Source of the DNA: an uncultured Burkholderiales bacterium
Lineage (GTDB): Bacteria > Pseudomonadota > Gammaproteobacteria > Burkholderiales > Thiobacillaceae
Length of the DNA: 64,000 nt
NCBI GenBank assembly: GCA_937949525.1
Contig: CALEDT010000002.1
Coordinates: forward strand, 31,312-95,311
Reading direction: 5' to 3'
How positions within the stretch are numbered: position 1 is the first letter of the stretch; every line of letters begins with the position of its first letter. Positions 18,719 through 26,254 of this stretch are shown one piece after another. A model generated the notes under the pieces. The model worked only from the letters and a program-made list of their open reading frames with translations, ran no database searches and was not told where the DNA came from. A program made the position numbers and the translations under genes.

Positions 18719-18839
18719 GTCCTTGCACGACGCATCGACGCGATGCGCGCGATTAGACGCTTATTGCGCCGCACAATCAACCGGCCGCCGCGCTGCAAAC
18801 GGGGCGACGGCCAAGGGCATCGCGCCGCCGAACGCGGCA

Positions 18840-19754
18840 TCAGAACCAGTACTGCCAGGCCAGCTTGAACCCGTCCGTCTTGCCTGCCTGCATCAGCGTC
18901 AGGCCCGCGCGATAGCCGCCGCCGGTGGCCTTGTAGCTGCGCGTGTCGCCCACCGTCACACTGATTTCCTGCTGACTGTCGGCGAAGATCTCCGAGCCGA
19001 AGTACCGTGTGTCGACCACCGAGATTTCCCACCACGCCTTCCTGCCGAACATCTGGCCCGGAATCGCCGCCATGACGCCGTTGCGCAGAACGTTGTTGTG
19101 CGTGCCCGACAGGTTGGCGCGCGCGTCGCCGCGTTCACGCACGGTGTGGCTGTGGCCGAACATGTTGCCGATGCCCAGGTCGTAGCCATCCATCTTCCAG
19201 TAGTACACGCTGGTCAGGGACGCCGAAACCAGGTTGGCGGCCTTGTCGAAATCGCCGCGCTCGGCATGGGTGTAACTCAATGCCGGTGTCAGATACCAGC
19301 GTGCGGCCAGCGGATACGTATACGCGGCGCCGAAGCCCACGTTGTAGGCGCTCTCGCCCTCCGACCAGACGCGCGTGATCGGCAGGCTCAACACGAGGCG
19401 ACGGCGCGGGTCGACCTCGTTGCGTATGGTGTAGCTCAGCGGCACGGTGCAGTACTTGGAATCGATATTGCGGCCGGAGAAGGAAGCGCAATTCAAACCC
19501 ACGCCGTAACTGGCCGGTGTGGCGCCGGGTGGTGTCGGCGCGACGTCCGGTTCGTGCTCGAAGTGCATGACGCCGAACGCCGTATCGAAGTCGCTGGTCG
19601 CCTGTATCTGGATGCTCGATGCGGGCGTCTGTGTCACCGGGTCGCTACAGATGTAGCTGTGCGTATGGTGATCGAACACGCAGGATGCAGCGGCGTGGCC
19701 CGAGGCAATGGCGAGCGCGACGAACGTCGCAGAGCGGATCGACAATGCTTTCAT
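18840..19754 (-). CDS. Secreted outer-membrane beta-barrel-like protein of unknown function
   Basis: Signal peptide MKALSIRSATFVALAIASGHAAAS; alternating amphipathic strands; ends in aromatic LAWQYWF, typical of BAM substrates. Confidence 0.65.
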   Translation of the reverse strand: MKALSIRSATFVALAIASGHAAASCVFDHHTHSYICSDPVTQTPASSIQIQATSDFDTAFGVMHFEHEPDVAPTPPGATPASYGVGLNCASFSGRNIDSKYCTVPLSYTIRNEVDPRRRLVLSLPITRVWSEGESAYNVGFGAAYTYPLAARWYLTPALSYTHAERGDFDKAANLVSASLTSVYYWKMDGYDLGIGNMFGHSHTVRERGDARANLSGTHNNVLRNGVMAAIPGQMFGRKAWWEISVVDTRYFGSEIFADSQQEISVTVGDTRSYKATGGGYRAGLTLMQAGKTDGFKLAWQYWF

Positions 19755-19797
19755 GATGGATTCCCCTTGGACAAAAAAATGCAGGACAGCCGGAGAA

Positions 19798-20478
19798 TCA
19801 ACGTCCGGTCACCCCGCGCAGATTCTCCAGTATGGCCGCGGCCACGGGATTGTCGGGCTGACGGCACAGGATGTCCTCGATGACCTCCGGAATGTCCTTG
19901 TACAACTTCAGCTCGTAGAGCGCGCTGACCAGGTACAGTTCGGGCGTTACATCATCGTCCGCCGCCAGCGCGCGCAGTTCGCGATAGACCGACTCCGCCT
20001 CGCGCAATTGTTCCAGCAGGCCGCCGGAGCGAATCACCACCATGCCGGTGCGGGTGCGCATGTCCGCCAGCACGTCGTCGGCCCGCGCCAGACGCATCAA
20101 CGCCGCGCTGGGCACCTGCTTCACTTCCGCCTGCGCCGTGCCGGACACGCGCGTCGTGGCGTCCTTCCCCACCTGCAGCACCACCGCGCCATTCCAGGTT
20201 TCCTGGCGGCCGGATTGACCGTACAGCAAACGCACGCGCGCCGCGTCGCCGAGTTCGAGGCGGTCGCCGGCACGCAGTTTCATGAACGGTGTGGCCGGCG
20301 CACGCGGCTGCTGCCCGACGCTGACCCAGACGGCGCCATGGACCAGCGTCACCAGTGCTTCATCGGCCTGTGCCGGCAACGAAAACAGCACCGCCAGCAT
20401 GACGGCCCAGCCGCCGCAGATCCGACGCCACCCACGAGCGGCCCGGATGAAGGTGGCGCGCGTCGCATCACTGGGCAT
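19798..20478 (-). CDS. FecR-like domain plus C-terminal TPR-like periplasmic/membrane protein
   Basis: ALVTLVHGAVWVSVG...KLRAGDRLELGDAARVRLLY...W: FecR-type pattern; C-terminal helical repeat LYLVSALYELKLYKDIPEVIEDILCRQPDNPVAAAILENL. Confidence 0.7.
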   Translation of the reverse strand: MPSDATRATFIRAARGWRRICGGWAVMLAVLFSLPAQADEALVTLVHGAVWVSVGQQPRAPATPFMKLRAGDRLELGDAARVRLLYGQSGRQETWNGAVVLQVGKDATTRVSGTAQAEVKQVPSAALMRLARADDVLADMRTRTGMVVIRSGGLLEQLREAESVYRELRALAADDDVTPELYLVSALYELKLYKDIPEVIEDILCRQPDNPVAAAILENLRGVTGR

Positions 20479-22378
20479 GATCCGTCTCCGTCGTCACATC
20501 GAGAATTTCGTGTAGGGTGATTGGCTGGCGATGGCCCTTGACGCTGACCACATCGCTGCGCCCCAGGCGCAGATGCTCGCGTCCAGCGGCACTGACGGTG
20601 GCTTCGCTGGCGACGATGTCGGCGTGGAACACCTTGGTCATCCCTTCCAAGCGTGAGGCTATGTTTACAGTATCGCCGATCGCGGTGAATTCGCTACGTC
20701 GGCGCGAGCCGATGCTGCCGACGATGGCGTCGCCGGTGTGGATGCCGATGCCGATCGCGAACTCGGGCAAATCCCGGTCGGGGAAACGCCGCTGCATCCA
20801 GGTGCGGAACTCCAGCGCGATGGCGCGCATGCGTAGCGCGACCCGCAGCGCGCGCAGCGCATGATCGCCGGTGGGCAGCGGGGTGCCGAACTCCACCATG
20901 ATGGCGTCACCGATGTATTTGTCGATGCTGCCTCCCTCTTCCAATACCGGTTGGCAGACGCGCTCGAAGTACTCGTTCAGCACTTCCACCACTTCGCCGG
21001 GGCTAAGCTGTTCACTCAAGGTCGTGAAGTTGCGGATGTCGGAGAACAGCACCGTGATGTGCGACAGGCTGCCGCCGAGCTCGGGCACCTGATCGCCGCG
21101 CAGCAGCACTTTCACCGCCGCATCCGACAGATATCTGCCGAACAGGCCGGCCAGCCGGGCACGCTGACGCGCCTCGCCGGTGAACAGCAACACCACGCCG
21201 CCGACGAAGGCGGCCAGCAGGGCGCCGTGCCAGGCAGCCACGGAAACCAGGAAGCCTTGGGTGAACAGCGGGTAACCGGACGCGATGACCAGCGACCCCA
21301 CCAGCAAGGCCACGGCGGTGCCGATCGGCAACGAGCCGGACAGCAACAGCGCCAGCACGACCAGCGCGGCGAGCGCGGCCGACACCCCGATGCGCGTCCG
21401 GGCAGAAAGTTCGTGCAGGTTGCGTCCGGACAGCAGGCTTTCGACGATGTTGGCCTGCAGCTCGGCGCCGCTCATGAGCTGCCGGCCGTCAGCCACGAAG
21501 CCGGTGCTGTAAGGCGTGAAATGGATGTCGCCCATGCCGGGAAAGTCCGCGCCGATGATCACCACCTTGCCGGCGAAAGTCCCCAGCAACGGATCCTTCG
21601 GCTCTGCGCTGAGCAGATGCGTCAGCGACAGCCGCGGCATGGCCCCAGGCGGGCCCAGGTATGCGATGTGGTGCGCCTGCCCATTCACGGCCTCGCCCCC
21701 TGCCCCGCCCCGCTGCCGGTGACGCCTGGCCAGCAATGCCGCGAAGCTCAGCTCGGGCATGGCCAGCCCGGCATAGTCCGCATGGGCCTGTGCGACCGGC
21801 TCGATCACATAACGCCTTACCACGCCGTCGCGATCGGCATGCAATTCGGCCAGCCCGACGTGGTTGGTCAGATCCAGTTCCGGAATGGCCAGCAGGTAAT
21901 CGGGGTGCGGCAGCGCATAACGATCGCCGCCGCCCTTGTCGTCACGGGCCAGGCCGGCCGCGAGCACCACGTCACCCTCAGCGATGGCCTGGCGCAGCGC
22001 CGCGTCATAGACCCGCGCGCGTGCCCCCTGCGGCCCTTCCACTTTGGCCAACCAGGCATCCGGACTGATGGCGAGCAGAAAATCCAGGCCGATGACGCTG
22101 GCGCCGAGCGCGCGCAGGCGTTCGATGGCGGCTGCGAACTGCGGGCCGAAGAACGCCAGCGGCTCGTCGCCGAAGCGCACCAGCGTGGCCTGATCGACCA
22201 CCACCAGCGCCACGTGTCGGGGTGCGCCGCGGGTGCCGGCGAGGCGATGCCAGGCATCGGAGTACAGCGCATCGAGCGGCGCGAGCAGGCCGGAGCGATA
22301 TGCCGTCTCGGCCAACGCAACCGCCATGACCACGACCAGCACCAGCCAGCGCCATTGCCGTCGCGACAGGCTTGCCAT
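20468..22378 (-). CDS. CHASE2-domain class III adenylate/guanylate cyclase
   Basis: N-terminal TM plus CHASE2 (VALVVVDQATLVRFGDEPL...RLRALGASVIGLDFLL), TM helices, then cyclase VLFSDIRNFTTLSEQL, DKYIGDAIMVEFG, EFTAIGDTVNIASRLEG. Confidence 0.93.
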   Translation of the reverse strand: MASLSRRQWRWLVLVVVMAVALAETAYRSGLLAPLDALYSDAWHRLAGTRGAPRHVALVVVDQATLVRFGDEPLAFFGPQFAAAIERLRALGASVIGLDFLLAISPDAWLAKVEGPQGARARVYDAALRQAIAEGDVVLAAGLARDDKGGGDRYALPHPDYLLAIPELDLTNHVGLAELHADRDGVVRRYVIEPVAQAHADYAGLAMPELSFAALLARRHRQRGGAGGEAVNGQAHHIAYLGPPGAMPRLSLTHLLSAEPKDPLLGTFAGKVVIIGADFPGMGDIHFTPYSTGFVADGRQLMSGAELQANIVESLLSGRNLHELSARTRIGVSAALAALVVLALLLSGSLPIGTAVALLVGSLVIASGYPLFTQGFLVSVAAWHGALLAAFVGGVVLLFTGEARQRARLAGLFGRYLSDAAVKVLLRGDQVPELGGSLSHITVLFSDIRNFTTLSEQLSPGEVVEVLNEYFERVCQPVLEEGGSIDKYIGDAIMVEFGTPLPTGDHALRALRVALRMRAIALEFRTWMQRRFPDRDLPEFAIGIGIHTGDAIVGSIGSRRRSEFTAIGDTVNIASRLEGMTKVFHADIVASEATVSAAGREHLRLGRSDVVSVKGHRQPITLHEILDVTTETDHAQ

Positions 22379-22386
22379 GGGCCGGC

Positions 22387-24672
22387 TCAGCGCCCGGTGG
22401 ACTGGAACGCGGCCCAGAAGTAAGGCGCGTGGCCGGCGCGCAGCATGGCCACCTGTGCGCTGCGCAACGCCTCGGCCGGCTCGTGCGTGCCCAGGCCGGC
22501 ATAGAAGCGGCGCATCAGGTCGGCGGTGGCGAGATCATCCACCGGCCACAGGCTGGCGACCACGTTGCGCGCGCCGGCGAACAGAAAACCGCGGATCAGG
22601 CCGATCACATCGTCGCCGCTCATGACCGCACCCAAGCCGGTCTCGCAGGCACTGAGCGTGACCAGCTCGGCATCCAATGCCAATCCGTACAGTTCGTCGA
22701 CGCTCAGTCGGCCGTCGTTCTCGGCGTCCGCCGCCAGCAACAAGCCCGAGCGCAAGGGCTGTTCCGCGGAAAAGTGGCCGTGCGTGGCGAAATGCAGCCA
22801 GGCATGACGCGCGGCGCGCGCGCGAAACGCCGTTTCGCTGGCCTCGGCCCGGATCAGCAGCGTACTGCCCGGCATGCCGGCGACGATGGCGCGCGCTTCC
22901 TGTTCCGCGTGCGGCAGATCCAGGCGCCGACTGCCCAGGTCCGGATTGGCCAGCACCAGCGCCCCCGCGGGCGTCCTGTCCGCCCGGCGTGGCGCGAGGA
23001 ACCGCAGCAGGCTGGCGCTGGGCAGGATGGCGAAGGCGACGCGCTCCACCAGATGCCGCTGCCCGTCATGCAGTGCGGCGAACGGCAGATAGTGCAGCGG
23101 GCCATGCGGTACCAGATACAGCTTGCGCACGTCGTCGCCCGGCTCTACCGGACCGAGCAGACGCCGGTACAGCGCCTGCGCGCGCGGCAGCACGTCCGCC
23201 GCCTGATCGGCGATGGCCTGGCGCAAGCCGCGGATGTCATTGGCCAGATCACCGGCCGCATTGCGCACCACCCGCAGATCGCGGGCGGACACCAGAAACG
23301 CCAGCAGTTCATCGCCATCGACATGGTAGGCCAGCAGGCGCTCGTCCGGCGCCAGCATCGCTTGCAGTTCGGCCAGCGACAGCGTGGACACGGCGACGAG
23401 CGAAGCGATCTCCGGATCGATCTCGCGCAGCCGCGCGATCGTCTGCCCACCATCGCGCGGCTCCGACACGCCGGTCATCTGCCGGCGCGCGGCTTCTTCA
23501 GCGCTGCGCTGGGCCTGCAACAGGCGCGCGACCTCGGCCTGGCGCGCGCGCGGTCCCCAGTCCTGGCGGGCGGCGAGCAGATCGACCAGCGCGCGGGCGC
23601 GCGAACGCTCGACGTACTCGAAGGCATCGCGCTCGCGGCCGAGCCGAAGCAGCGTGCGGATCAGGCGCGCGTACACCTGCTGCTTGTCGCCGACGAAACC
23701 GATCTTGTTGGCCTCCGTGGCGATGCTGGCGCGTTGCGCCTCCAACACCTCGATGGCATGCGCGTAATGGCGCGCGGCCTCCGCGTCCTCACCGCGCTGT
23801 TCGGCGATGCGGCCACGGTCGAAACTGGCCATCCAGTAGATCTCGCCGTTCTGGCGCGTGCGCGGATGGGCCAGCAGCCGGTCCAGGCGAGCGGCCGCGG
23901 CGTCCACCTCACCCATGCCGAGCAGGGCGCGGCTCAGCATGTAGGCGCGCGGCAGTTCCTGCCACAGCCAGTTGCTTTCGCCGCGCAGCAGGGCGCCGCT
24001 GAACAGATCGTCGAGAAAAGCATCGAGCTTGAACGTGCGGTCGCTGCTGACCGCGTCGTAGGCCTGGCGATACTCGCCCAGCGCCATGTACACCCTGCCC
24101 TGTGCCAGCGCGCGCGTGGTCTTGTAGTCGTCCTTGAACAACGAGCGACCGATGCGGCCGATGGGCTCCAACTGCGCGCGCGCGGCCGCGTGGTCGCCGC
24201 GAAACGCGTGGGCGAGCGCCAGCGTGGCATGGCTGTCGATGGCGATCAGCGGCTCCAGGCCGGAGCGCGCCATCCAGTCGAGCGCGCGTTGCGCCTCGCC
24301 TGCCGCGAGGTCGTAACGCCCCAGATCGATCGCCGCCTCGGCCCGCATCAGCAGGATCGCCGGCATGGCATCGTCCAGACCGAACAGCACGCTTTCGCGA
24401 TCAGCCCGGGCGAACGTGGTCTCGAAACGGTCCAGGCAGGCTTGCAGACGGGCGTAATGCTTGGTCCGCGCATAGGCGTGGCACAGCATGTGCACTTCGC
24501 TGGCCGACAGGCGCTCCGGGCGCGCCACTGCCTCGGCCTGCTGGATCACCTGCTCGTACTGGCCGGCGGCGATCAGGCGCAACCACTGGTTGGCCTGGCG
24601 GCTGGCGTGCGCATGAACACTGGCCAAGGCCAGCAGCAACAGCAGCGCGATGGCGAAAATGCGGTTCGACAT
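22387..24672 (-). CDS. Secreted TPR plus CHAT-domain (caspase-like) protein
   Basis: Signal peptide MSNRIFAIALLLLLALASVHAHA; TPR-like repeats; C-terminal CHAT with HFATHGHF (His) and LVTLSACETGLG (Cys), GFLFAGARNVVASLWPVDD. Confidence 0.93.
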   Translation of the reverse strand: MSNRIFAIALLLLLALASVHAHASRQANQWLRLIAAGQYEQVIQQAEAVARPERLSASEVHMLCHAYARTKHYARLQACLDRFETTFARADRESVLFGLDDAMPAILLMRAEAAIDLGRYDLAAGEAQRALDWMARSGLEPLIAIDSHATLALAHAFRGDHAAARAQLEPIGRIGRSLFKDDYKTTRALAQGRVYMALGEYRQAYDAVSSDRTFKLDAFLDDLFSGALLRGESNWLWQELPRAYMLSRALLGMGEVDAAAARLDRLLAHPRTRQNGEIYWMASFDRGRIAEQRGEDAEAARHYAHAIEVLEAQRASIATEANKIGFVGDKQQVYARLIRTLLRLGRERDAFEYVERSRARALVDLLAARQDWGPRARQAEVARLLQAQRSAEEAARRQMTGVSEPRDGGQTIARLREIDPEIASLVAVSTLSLAELQAMLAPDERLLAYHVDGDELLAFLVSARDLRVVRNAAGDLANDIRGLRQAIADQAADVLPRAQALYRRLLGPVEPGDDVRKLYLVPHGPLHYLPFAALHDGQRHLVERVAFAILPSASLLRFLAPRRADRTPAGALVLANPDLGSRRLDLPHAEQEARAIVAGMPGSTLLIRAEASETAFRARAARHAWLHFATHGHFSAEQPLRSGLLLAADAENDGRLSVDELYGLALDAELVTLSACETGLGAVMSGDDVIGLIRGFLFAGARNVVASLWPVDDLATADLMRRFYAGLGTHEPAEALRSAQVAMLRAGHAPYFWAAFQSTGR

Positions 24673-24743: not shown

Positions 24744-26195
24744 TCACAGCACCTCGCCGTGCCAGCCCAGGGGTGACAGCCCGCGCGCCATCGCGCCCGC
24801 CTCCAGCGCGCGCAGCAAGTCATGCGGTCCGACCGCGTACAGATCGGTATGGGCCAGATCGCCATGATCGGCCAGCAGGCGTTCCACCAGCCCGGCCGGA
24901 TCGTGCGCGCCGTCGATCGGGTGGTAATGGAAGTTGTCCATCGCATCGGCCCAGGAACGGCAAAGGTTGTCCAGGTAATGCCCGGTTTCGCCCGCCACCC
25001 AGTACAGATGCATGGCATCGGCGATCTCCAGCGACATGGCGTGCTGGATCAGGCTCTGGATCGGCGCGAAACCGTGTTCCCAGGCGACGAACAGGGCCGG
25101 ACGGCGCGATTCGATGTTGTAGACGAAGCCGCCGAACGGCCCTTCGATGGTGACCGTGTCCTCCTTGGCCAGGCTGTCGAATGCCTTGCGCGTGAACGGC
25201 CGGTTGTCGCGGCGGATGTGCAAGGTGATCTGGCGGTCCTCGCACGGACAACTGGCGATGTGATACTCGCCGGCGATGCCGTCGGCGGCGAGGCGCACGC
25301 GCTGCCCGGCCAGGAAGCGCAAACGCTGGCTGCGCGGGGTGGTGAGATGCAGCGCGACGATGCGTTCGCCCAGCCGTTCCACCGCCTTGACCCGCGCCGG
25401 GATGCGCTGCTGCGGGATGTCGGCGGCACCGGCCACGGCGGCCTCGATCACCACGTCGGTCACGGCCGTGTAGGAACACAGCAGGAAATCGCCGTTGGCC
25501 TTGTCCTGCTCGCGGAAAGTGAAATCGTGCGGGTGCACCCTGCGCAACTGGCCGGACACCAGGCGCGCGCGACATTCGCCACAGTTGCCGTTGCTGCAGC
25601 CGTAATTGAGCGGCAGACCGACGCGCAGCGCGGCCTCCAGCAGCGTATCGTTGCCCTCCACCAGGAATTCGTGACCGGACGGCTGAACCGTGACTTGAGC
25701 GGACATGATGCGCATCACACTTTCGTGGGCCAGCAGCGATTCCGCCCGTTCGGCTTCCTTGGGGGCCGCGTCGAGCTCGCGTTTGAGCCATAGTTTCACT
25801 CCGGCCACGGCCTCGTAGAGCGCCGGGCCGCCCCGGTCGGCCAGATCGTCCAGTTTGTCGTTGAGGAAGCGCAGCACCTCGTCGTAATGCAGCAGCAGCG
25901 TCTTGGCCGCGGCGAATTCCCGGCCCATCTCGAACAGCCGTTCGGCCAACACTTCCTTGTCCGGCAGCGCGCGTTCGTAGATGCGCTTGCCGTATGCCTT
26001 TTCCTTGATCTCCTGCACCCGTTTGAACTCGCCGTCGTCCTCCCAGCTCACGTCGGGGAAGACACGCAGCAGTTCGTTCATGTCCACCATGCCATCGAAG
26101 GTGGCCAGTTCGCCGTCATGGATCATGCGCTGGATGCTCGCGCGCGATTGCCCGACCAGGCGGGCGACACGGGACAGAGGAAGGTAATGCGCCAT
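24744..26195 (-). CDS. Fusion: N-terminal HTH/excisionase-like domain, helical middle, 2Fe-2S ferredoxin, FNR-like FAD/NAD module
   Basis: MAHYLPLSRVARLVGQSRASIQRMIHDGELATFDGMVDMNELLRVFPD (HTH); NYGCSNGNCGECRARL...LLCSYTA (Cx4Cx2C...C); reductase-like C-terminus EGPFGGFVYNIESRRPALFVAWEHGFAPIQSLIQ; start at 26195. Confidence 0.85.
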   Translation of the reverse strand: MAHYLPLSRVARLVGQSRASIQRMIHDGELATFDGMVDMNELLRVFPDVSWEDDGEFKRVQEIKEKAYGKRIYERALPDKEVLAERLFEMGREFAAAKTLLLHYDEVLRFLNDKLDDLADRGGPALYEAVAGVKLWLKRELDAAPKEAERAESLLAHESVMRIMSAQVTVQPSGHEFLVEGNDTLLEAALRVGLPLNYGCSNGNCGECRARLVSGQLRRVHPHDFTFREQDKANGDFLLCSYTAVTDVVIEAAVAGAADIPQQRIPARVKAVERLGERIVALHLTTPRSQRLRFLAGQRVRLAADGIAGEYHIASCPCEDRQITLHIRRDNRPFTRKAFDSLAKEDTVTIEGPFGGFVYNIESRRPALFVAWEHGFAPIQSLIQHAMSLEIADAMHLYWVAGETGHYLDNLCRSWADAMDNFHYHPIDGAHDPAGLVERLLADHGDLAHTDLYAVGPHDLLRALEAGAMARGLSPLGWHGEVL

Positions 26196-26254
26196 GGCAC
26201 GCATGTTAGTCGCGCGCGTGAGCGATACCAAACAGCGCCCTGTAATATTCGCAC

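Follow-up and report, generated by a model that had tools for sequence, protein, structure and literature searches.

Four consecutive genes on the minus strand (positions 18840-24672) of a 64,000-nucleotide stretch of DNA from an uncultured Burkholderiales bacterium of the Thiobacillaceae, here called the window, code for a TPR-CHAT protein, a CHASE2 receptor with a class III cyclase domain, a FecR-like protein and a predicted outer-membrane beta-barrel protein. This module and its recurrence in other genomes are well supported. We propose that it may act as a trans-envelope sensor in which the barrel, the caspase-fold peptidase and the FecR-like protein feed the CHASE2 adenylate cyclase, a reading to which we give an even chance. 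The cassette suggests a little-studied way of sensing conditions at the cell envelope, with the same kinds of gene grouped in many other bacteria. The coordinates of the open reading frames (ORFs) agree with an earlier note made from the DNA letters, in which a gap of 8 nt between the CHAT and cyclase genes, an 11-nt overlap between the cyclase and FecR-like genes and a gap of 43 nt between the FecR-like and barrel genes had been described; from spacing and shared strand, the four genes likely form one operon. They are, in order of transcription:

22387-24672, minus strand: predicted exported TPR-CHAT caspase-fold peptidase, 761 aa (Pfam, dyad alignment, Foldseek)
20468-22378, minus strand: CHASE2 receptor joined to an adenylate cyclase domain of class III (predicted IIIb), 636 aa (Pfam, motifs, transmembrane segments)
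19798-20478, minus strand: FecR-like protein, putatively periplasmic and with a TPR-like tail, 226 aa (FecR score below cut-off, alignment of an 18-member family)
18840-19754, minus strand: predicted outer-membrane beta-barrel protein, 304 aa (family alignment A1, beta periodicity, C-terminus)

The proteins of the cassette

The CHAT, CHASE2 and class III cyclase domains named in the earlier note all scored above their Pfam cut-offs. The CHAT protein matched PF12770 with 250.1 bits (cut-off 24) over profile positions 3-288 of 289, and a scan of the genome contigs with CHAT returned two loci only. The His of HFATHG and the Cys of SACETG, pointed out before as apparently catalytic, are H631 and C676; this predicted dyad was kept in every relative covering the site and was invariant across 11 diverse alignment rows. 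The motifs ILCHGE and GACET of the Craspase TPR-CHAT chains aligned onto H631 and C676, an alignment that required a profile, as phmmer with the CHAT sequence found no match in the PDB; a broader CHAT profile (A4) drew generic TPR matches from the PDB and was rejected. In the related Csx29, H615 and C658 are catalytic, and the CHAT protease of Craspase is experimentally active (PMC10028731). An AlphaFold2 (AF2) model of moderate quality (three rows; mean predicted local distance difference test, pLDDT, 62.5) placed H631 and C676 each at a strand end, and Foldseek with this model gave Craspase 7xsq_B as best match (E 2.6e-10), with further matches to the transmembrane anti-sigma factor DdvA (8rot_A) and to separase. 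Export of the protein, as claimed earlier, is backed by a signal-peptide-like helix at residues 5-23 and by the same N-terminal feature in three related proteins (L028, L030 and L031; L and G numbers denote loci and genomes of our surveys). Hence, the CHAT protein is predicted to be an exported caspase-fold cysteine peptidase.

In the cyclase protein, CHASE2 (PF05226, 116 bits) and Guanylate_cyc (PF00211, 86 bits) were recognized, with transmembrane helices near residues 9-27, 324-342, 348-366 and 380-398, i.e., one before CHASE2 and three (324-398) between the CHASE2 and cyclase domains. Both metal-binding Asp residues (D447 and D491), the substrate-binding Lys and Thr (K487 and T565) as well as N572 and R576 are present at their motif positions, which we take to be the residue set of class IIIb adenylate cyclases. 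Because of this match, cyclic AMP (cAMP) is the likelier product rather than cGMP. The genome encodes two class III cyclases, both of them CHASE2 proteins, and yielded 11 matches to cyclic nucleotide-binding domains, 10 of them over the cut-off; therefore, a cAMP route exists in this organism. The second CHASE2-cyclase (L043) belongs to a different operon of the order SH3, SH3, M48, CHASE2-cyclase and a phosphodiesterase of the metallo-beta-lactamase type (MBL/PDEase_II), with domains assigned through relatives.

The name of the third protein stands as a resemblance only, since the FecR profile (PF04773) scored 13.2 bits, below its cut-off of 24, and matched one of the 18 aligned family members. 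The protein carries a signal-peptide-like helix at residues 20-38, and its family profile gave nothing significant against the PDB, with no MtxA chain among the matches. FecR-like genes adjoin a CHASE2-cyclase gene in most related loci.

The last protein of the cassette matched no Pfam family; among its relatives the top Pfam match was a weak one to OMP_b-brl (E 0.015). It had been described as a signal-peptide protein with a terminal YWF like that of outer-membrane proteins, and this description was borne out: the protein has an N-terminal signal-peptide-like helix and ends in QYWF, and most of its family end in FG[YT]WF. Moreover, the last 215 columns of the family alignment showed a period-two hydrophobic alternation of 0.86 as compared to 0.63 ± 0.07 after shuffling, a value reached by 3 of 1000 shuffles; none of the CHAT, cyclase and FecR-like families stood out in the same test as the barrel family does. 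Given the signal-peptide-like helix, the strand-like alternation and the aromatic end, the protein is most readily interpreted as an outer-membrane beta-barrel. An AF2 model of it from the sequence alone was uninformative and discarded (pLDDT 33).

Recurrence of the cassette and exchange of its parts

The recurrent co-localization in other genomes that the earlier note had proposed as a check was found in surveys that started from the CHAT, the FecR-like and the barrel genes. In 110 genomes of the order, 43 CHAT genes were detected and linkage was counted from the CHAT loci. A CHASE2-cyclase lay within 6 kb of at least 12 of the 43 as compared to 0.44 expected, an about 27-fold excess; as part of the 43 was examined, 12 is a lower bound. 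The linked genes comprise nine of the 20 CHAT loci examined (L079, L081, L082, L083, L084, L087, L089, L090 and L091), the window, G118:C50 and G211:C18, and they span nine families. The Poisson tail for 12 against 0.44 is 7e-14, which is only indicative because three of the loci (L079, L081 and L082) stem from one genus and CHAT and cyclase genes converge in L090. In a tree of 34 cyclases, the caspase-linked ones were distributed over five or more clades and the trait changed nine times or more, where some absences of linkage may be contig ends (L052 and L053).

The FecR-like survey was seeded in 300 genomes of the order, and 20 loci besides that of the window were examined. A CHASE2-cyclase was located within about 6 kb in 12 of them (L050-L053, L056-L061, L063 and L066), and a caspase-fold peptidase was nearby in 11. 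This peptidase was CHAT in five loci (L056, L058, L059, L060 and L062; the L059 gene was detected by six-frame hidden Markov model scanning) and C14 in six (L051, L057, L064 and L066 by Pfam; L054 and L063 by a profile built in this work). CHAT and C14 are therefore interchangeable as the peptidase of the cassette. At L066 (9682-11373), a C14 caspase domain is fused to an FGE-sulfatase domain, with FecR-like and CHASE2-cyclase genes adjoining. A locus of about 13 kb on contig C3 of G183 (L078/L051, about 124-137 kb) carries TPR-CHAT, barrel, C14, FecR-like and CHASE2-cyclase genes on one strand.

The complete cassette, with CHAT, cyclase, FecR-like and barrel genes in the order of the window, was recovered from another genus (L032, genome G037). 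What looked like a fusion of CHAT and cyclase at this locus, an ORF of 1246 aa, was rejected because it crosses a run of N, i.e., an assembly gap. In G031 (L025/L027), CHAT is followed by the cyclase up to the contig end, and in L070 the barrel gene adjoins CHAT. In three congeners (L028, L029 and L030), a barrel-CHAT pair with 37-39% and 45-46% identity to the window pair is placed inside an operon of the L043 type, between M48 and cyclase; therefore, the CHASE2-cyclases accompanied by related barrel-CHAT pairs belong to two clades. In L031 the pair adjoins M48 and the contig stops before any cyclase. At these four loci (genomes G022, G032, G024 and G012), the pair is found amid SH3 and M48 metallopeptidase genes; a second SH3-M48 protein is encoded downstream of CHAT and is devoid of the HExxH motif in L030.

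Furthermore, homologues of the barrel were found on plasmids, alphaproteobacterial ones among them. On plasmid NC_013855.1 of Azospirillum sp. B510 (L124, 8413-13825; a record without annotation), barrel, CHAT and CHASE2 genes stand in a row on one strand, and the CHASE2 protein is without a recognized cyclase or other output domain. This suggests that CHAT may have its constant partner in the CHASE2 receptor and not in the cyclase. On an Azospirillum oryzae plasmid, barrel and CHAT are 92 nt apart and no cyclase domain was recognized nearby. On a plasmid of Rhodobacteraceae SC52, one C14 gene is located two genes before the barrel and a second one three genes after it. On the Thiodictyon plasmid NZ_CP020372.1 (L121, 8536-13232), a barrel homologue is directly followed by a TIR-domain gene, and an FGE-sulfatase-domain gene is nearby.

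The surface part itself can differ. An autotransporter-type barrel replaces the cassette barrel in L054 and L064, and two-partner secretion proteins (FhaB/ShlB) take its place in L035 (G017:C193). At the latter locus, the secretion pair shares one strand with CHAT, CHASE2-cyclase and DUF928 genes, i.e., the inner parts are kept while the surface part differs.

Proposed signalling route and its alternatives

We propose that the barrel would serve as surface input receiving a signal from outside, and that the TPR-CHAT protein would be a periplasmic peptidase, inactive until triggered or released by the barrel or by what the barrel reports. The FecR-like protein with its TPR-like tail would act as periplasmic adaptor, and cleavage, or the binding of a CHAT/FecR-like complex, would switch the periplasmic CHASE2 domain, upon which cytoplasmic cAMP would change and CRP-type regulators would respond. 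That CHAT cleaves, that its partner is the CHASE2 or the FecR-like protein, that the direction runs from the barrel to cAMP and that the product is cAMP rather than cGMP is what we infer. The envelope module coupling proteolysis to cyclic-nucleotide output, as suggested in the earlier note, is better grounded by the repeated association and by the conservation of active-site residues in both CHAT and the cyclase; the coupling itself stays plausible. Several observations weigh against the proposed route: CHAT and cyclase genes are convergent in L090 and hence not in one operon there, many CHASE2-cyclases have no caspase-fold neighbour (e.g., L043, L046 and L047), and five barrel loci (L072-L076) are without any cassette partner nearby. 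In addition, the FecR assignment is below the Pfam cut-off, and the AF2 models reached moderate quality only for CHAT and a pLDDT of 33 for the barrel.

Two other readings of the CHAT protein appear unlikely, each to a similar degree. It may act in the periplasm on outer-membrane proteins, the co-encoded barrel among them, as a peptidase of quality control or processing, with the CHASE2-cyclase reporting envelope stress instead of being its target. M48 metallopeptidases include those with a BepA-type role in outer-membrane protein maintenance, and the SH3 and M48 genes around the barrel-CHAT pair in L028-L031 would fit such a function, as would the A. oryzae pair with its lack of a recognized cyclase domain. 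By contrast, CHAT or C14 accompanies CHASE2-cyclases where the barrel is absent (L056, L058-L060 and L079-L091), so that the cyclase looks the commoner partner. The other reading is that of a ligand-binding scaffold, in practice a pseudo-peptidase, which would regulate the CHASE2 receptor through binding and not through proteolysis; it is in line with the Foldseek match to the signalling protein DdvA and with the TPR-rich architecture. The invariance of H631 and C676 argues against it, and the C14 caspase domains that fill the place of CHAT at other loci point to peptidase activity as the common trait.

A role of the cassette as a conflict or self-killing device comparable to Pycsar or Craspase defence, with a surface trigger that activates both peptidase and cyclase, is far less probable. 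In its favour are a PADLOC match of 87 bits between the cyclase domain and Pycsar cyclases, the relationship of CHAT to Craspase and the position of the cassette as an insertion between core genes. However, the cyclase match is that of a general catalytic domain, the peptidase is exported and the cassette is without effector or CRISPR gene; besides the cyclase domain, PADLOC reported on the window a weak BovA match, and no Pycsar effector or CRISPR partner. Csx29 of type III-E CRISPR resembles the window protein in its TPR and CHAT parts, the aligned His/Cys dyad and as best structural match (PMC10028731), whereas it is cytoplasmic and activated by RNA through Cas7-11, and its model scored 42.6 bits on the window CHAT against a cut-off of 300. 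That four unrelated genes are adjacent by chance is scarcely credible: some family members do occur apart from the others (L055, L065, L067 and L072-L076), but the excess of CHAT-CHASE2 proximity, the linkage on several cyclase clades and the barrel-CHAT-CHASE2 order in another class are not in accordance with it.

The route from barrel to CHASE2-cyclase proposed here has partial counterparts in known systems, which are likened by description and as far as the accessible parts of the papers go. In Campylobacterota, a cluster of CHASE2 adenylate cyclase, phosphodiesterase, FecR outer-membrane protein and TPR protein was proposed as a cAMP pathway (mBio 2022, PMC9239204); it shares with the window a CHASE2 cyclase clustered with FecR-type and TPR partners, whereas 18840-24672 holds no phosphodiesterase, the TPR protein of the window carries CHAT and its FecR-likeness is below the cut-off. 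In Sinorhizobium meliloti, genetics showed that the barrel NsrA is needed for the CHASE2 cyclases CyaK and CyaD1/D2 to answer an outside protein signal (PMC7529298, PMC13001267). As in the proposed cassette, an outer-membrane barrel acts upstream of a CHASE2 adenylate cyclase; NsrA is about 1200 aa long with its barrel in 600-1200, as compared to 304 aa in the window, and the accessible text names no peptidase or FecR-like partner. A metacaspase-CHASE2 fusion of Trichodesmium erythraeum also joins a caspase-fold peptidase to a CHASE2 receptor, there in one protein with the peptidase predicted to be cytoplasmic (PMC2853523, PMC3501461), in contrast to separate genes, exported peptidase and cyclase output in the window. 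The mtxA gene of Magnetospirillum, coding for a signal-peptide protein, adjoins a CHASE2 adenylate cyclase gene, and no CHAT or barrel is mentioned in the accessible text (PMC4439547). A literature search for CHASE2, CHAT domain and FecR found no paper, and in the accessible parts of the literature on CHASE2 relatives none was found that joins exported caspase-fold peptidase, CHASE2-cyclase, FecR-like protein and barrel; most subscription papers were outside the search and priority is unproven.

Exported bacterial caspase-fold proteins have few assigned roles, and few signals of CHASE2 are known. Through the repeated pairing, the CHAT/C14 exchange and the recurring barrel family, each of the two gains a partner that can be tested. 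Should the cyclase be under the control of the peptidase, regulated periplasmic proteolysis would feed a second messenger, a route into signalling known to us only for sigma factors (regulated intramembrane proteolysis), and barrel-to-CHASE2 signalling as in NsrA-CyaK would have a candidate mechanism. We also consider, tentatively and with more doubt than confidence, a distinct and widespread Gram-negative class of trans-envelope signalling in which a surface part, be it this barrel family, a two-partner secretion pair or an autotransporter-type barrel, would control an exported CHAT or C14 peptidase switching a CHASE2 receptor, most often an adenylate cyclase. Such a class would represent a bacterial caspase-fold relay ending in a second messenger, not in death.

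Insertion site and flanking genes

The earlier note had placed the cassette, as a possibly portable module, between sdh and recJ. It does border the sdh side, whereas a reductase gene separates it from recJ. The flanking features are:

24744-26225, minus strand: helix-turn-helix (HTH)/2Fe-2S/FAD-reductase gene (Pfam Fer2, FAD_binding_6)
18752-18780, minus strand: promoter-like element of sdhCAB, upstream of sdhC (TTGATTGTGC..CGCAATAAGCGT..AAT, also given as TTGATTGTGC..CGCAATA.GCGT..AAT)

The suggestion of portability gained support from empty sites in four sister species. In three of them (L097, L098 and L109), recJ, the reductase gene and sdhCAB are found together and the cassette is absent; in the fourth (L110), the reductase gene adjoins sdhCAB without cassette and a dnaJ/dnaK-like pair stands in place of recJ. 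Since these genes are joined in sister species, the cassette is, from comparison of the sites, an insertion between core genes. Its borders are the stop of the reductase gene on one side and the promoter-like element, downstream, on the other; this element is conserved in the genus and was also found in L097, L098 and L109, where the cassette is absent. Around the insertion, no mobile genes and no clear border repeats were found, only divergent repeats of chance type, and the base composition of the cassette resembles that of its neighbours, which indicates that the insertion is not very recent. The reductase gene was detected in each of the 23 genomes from the genus; what some of them hold is only fragmentary or a paralogue that matches more weakly. 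Its product is an unusual fusion of HTH, 2Fe-2S ferredoxin and FAD-reductase parts, encoded next to recJ across the genus.

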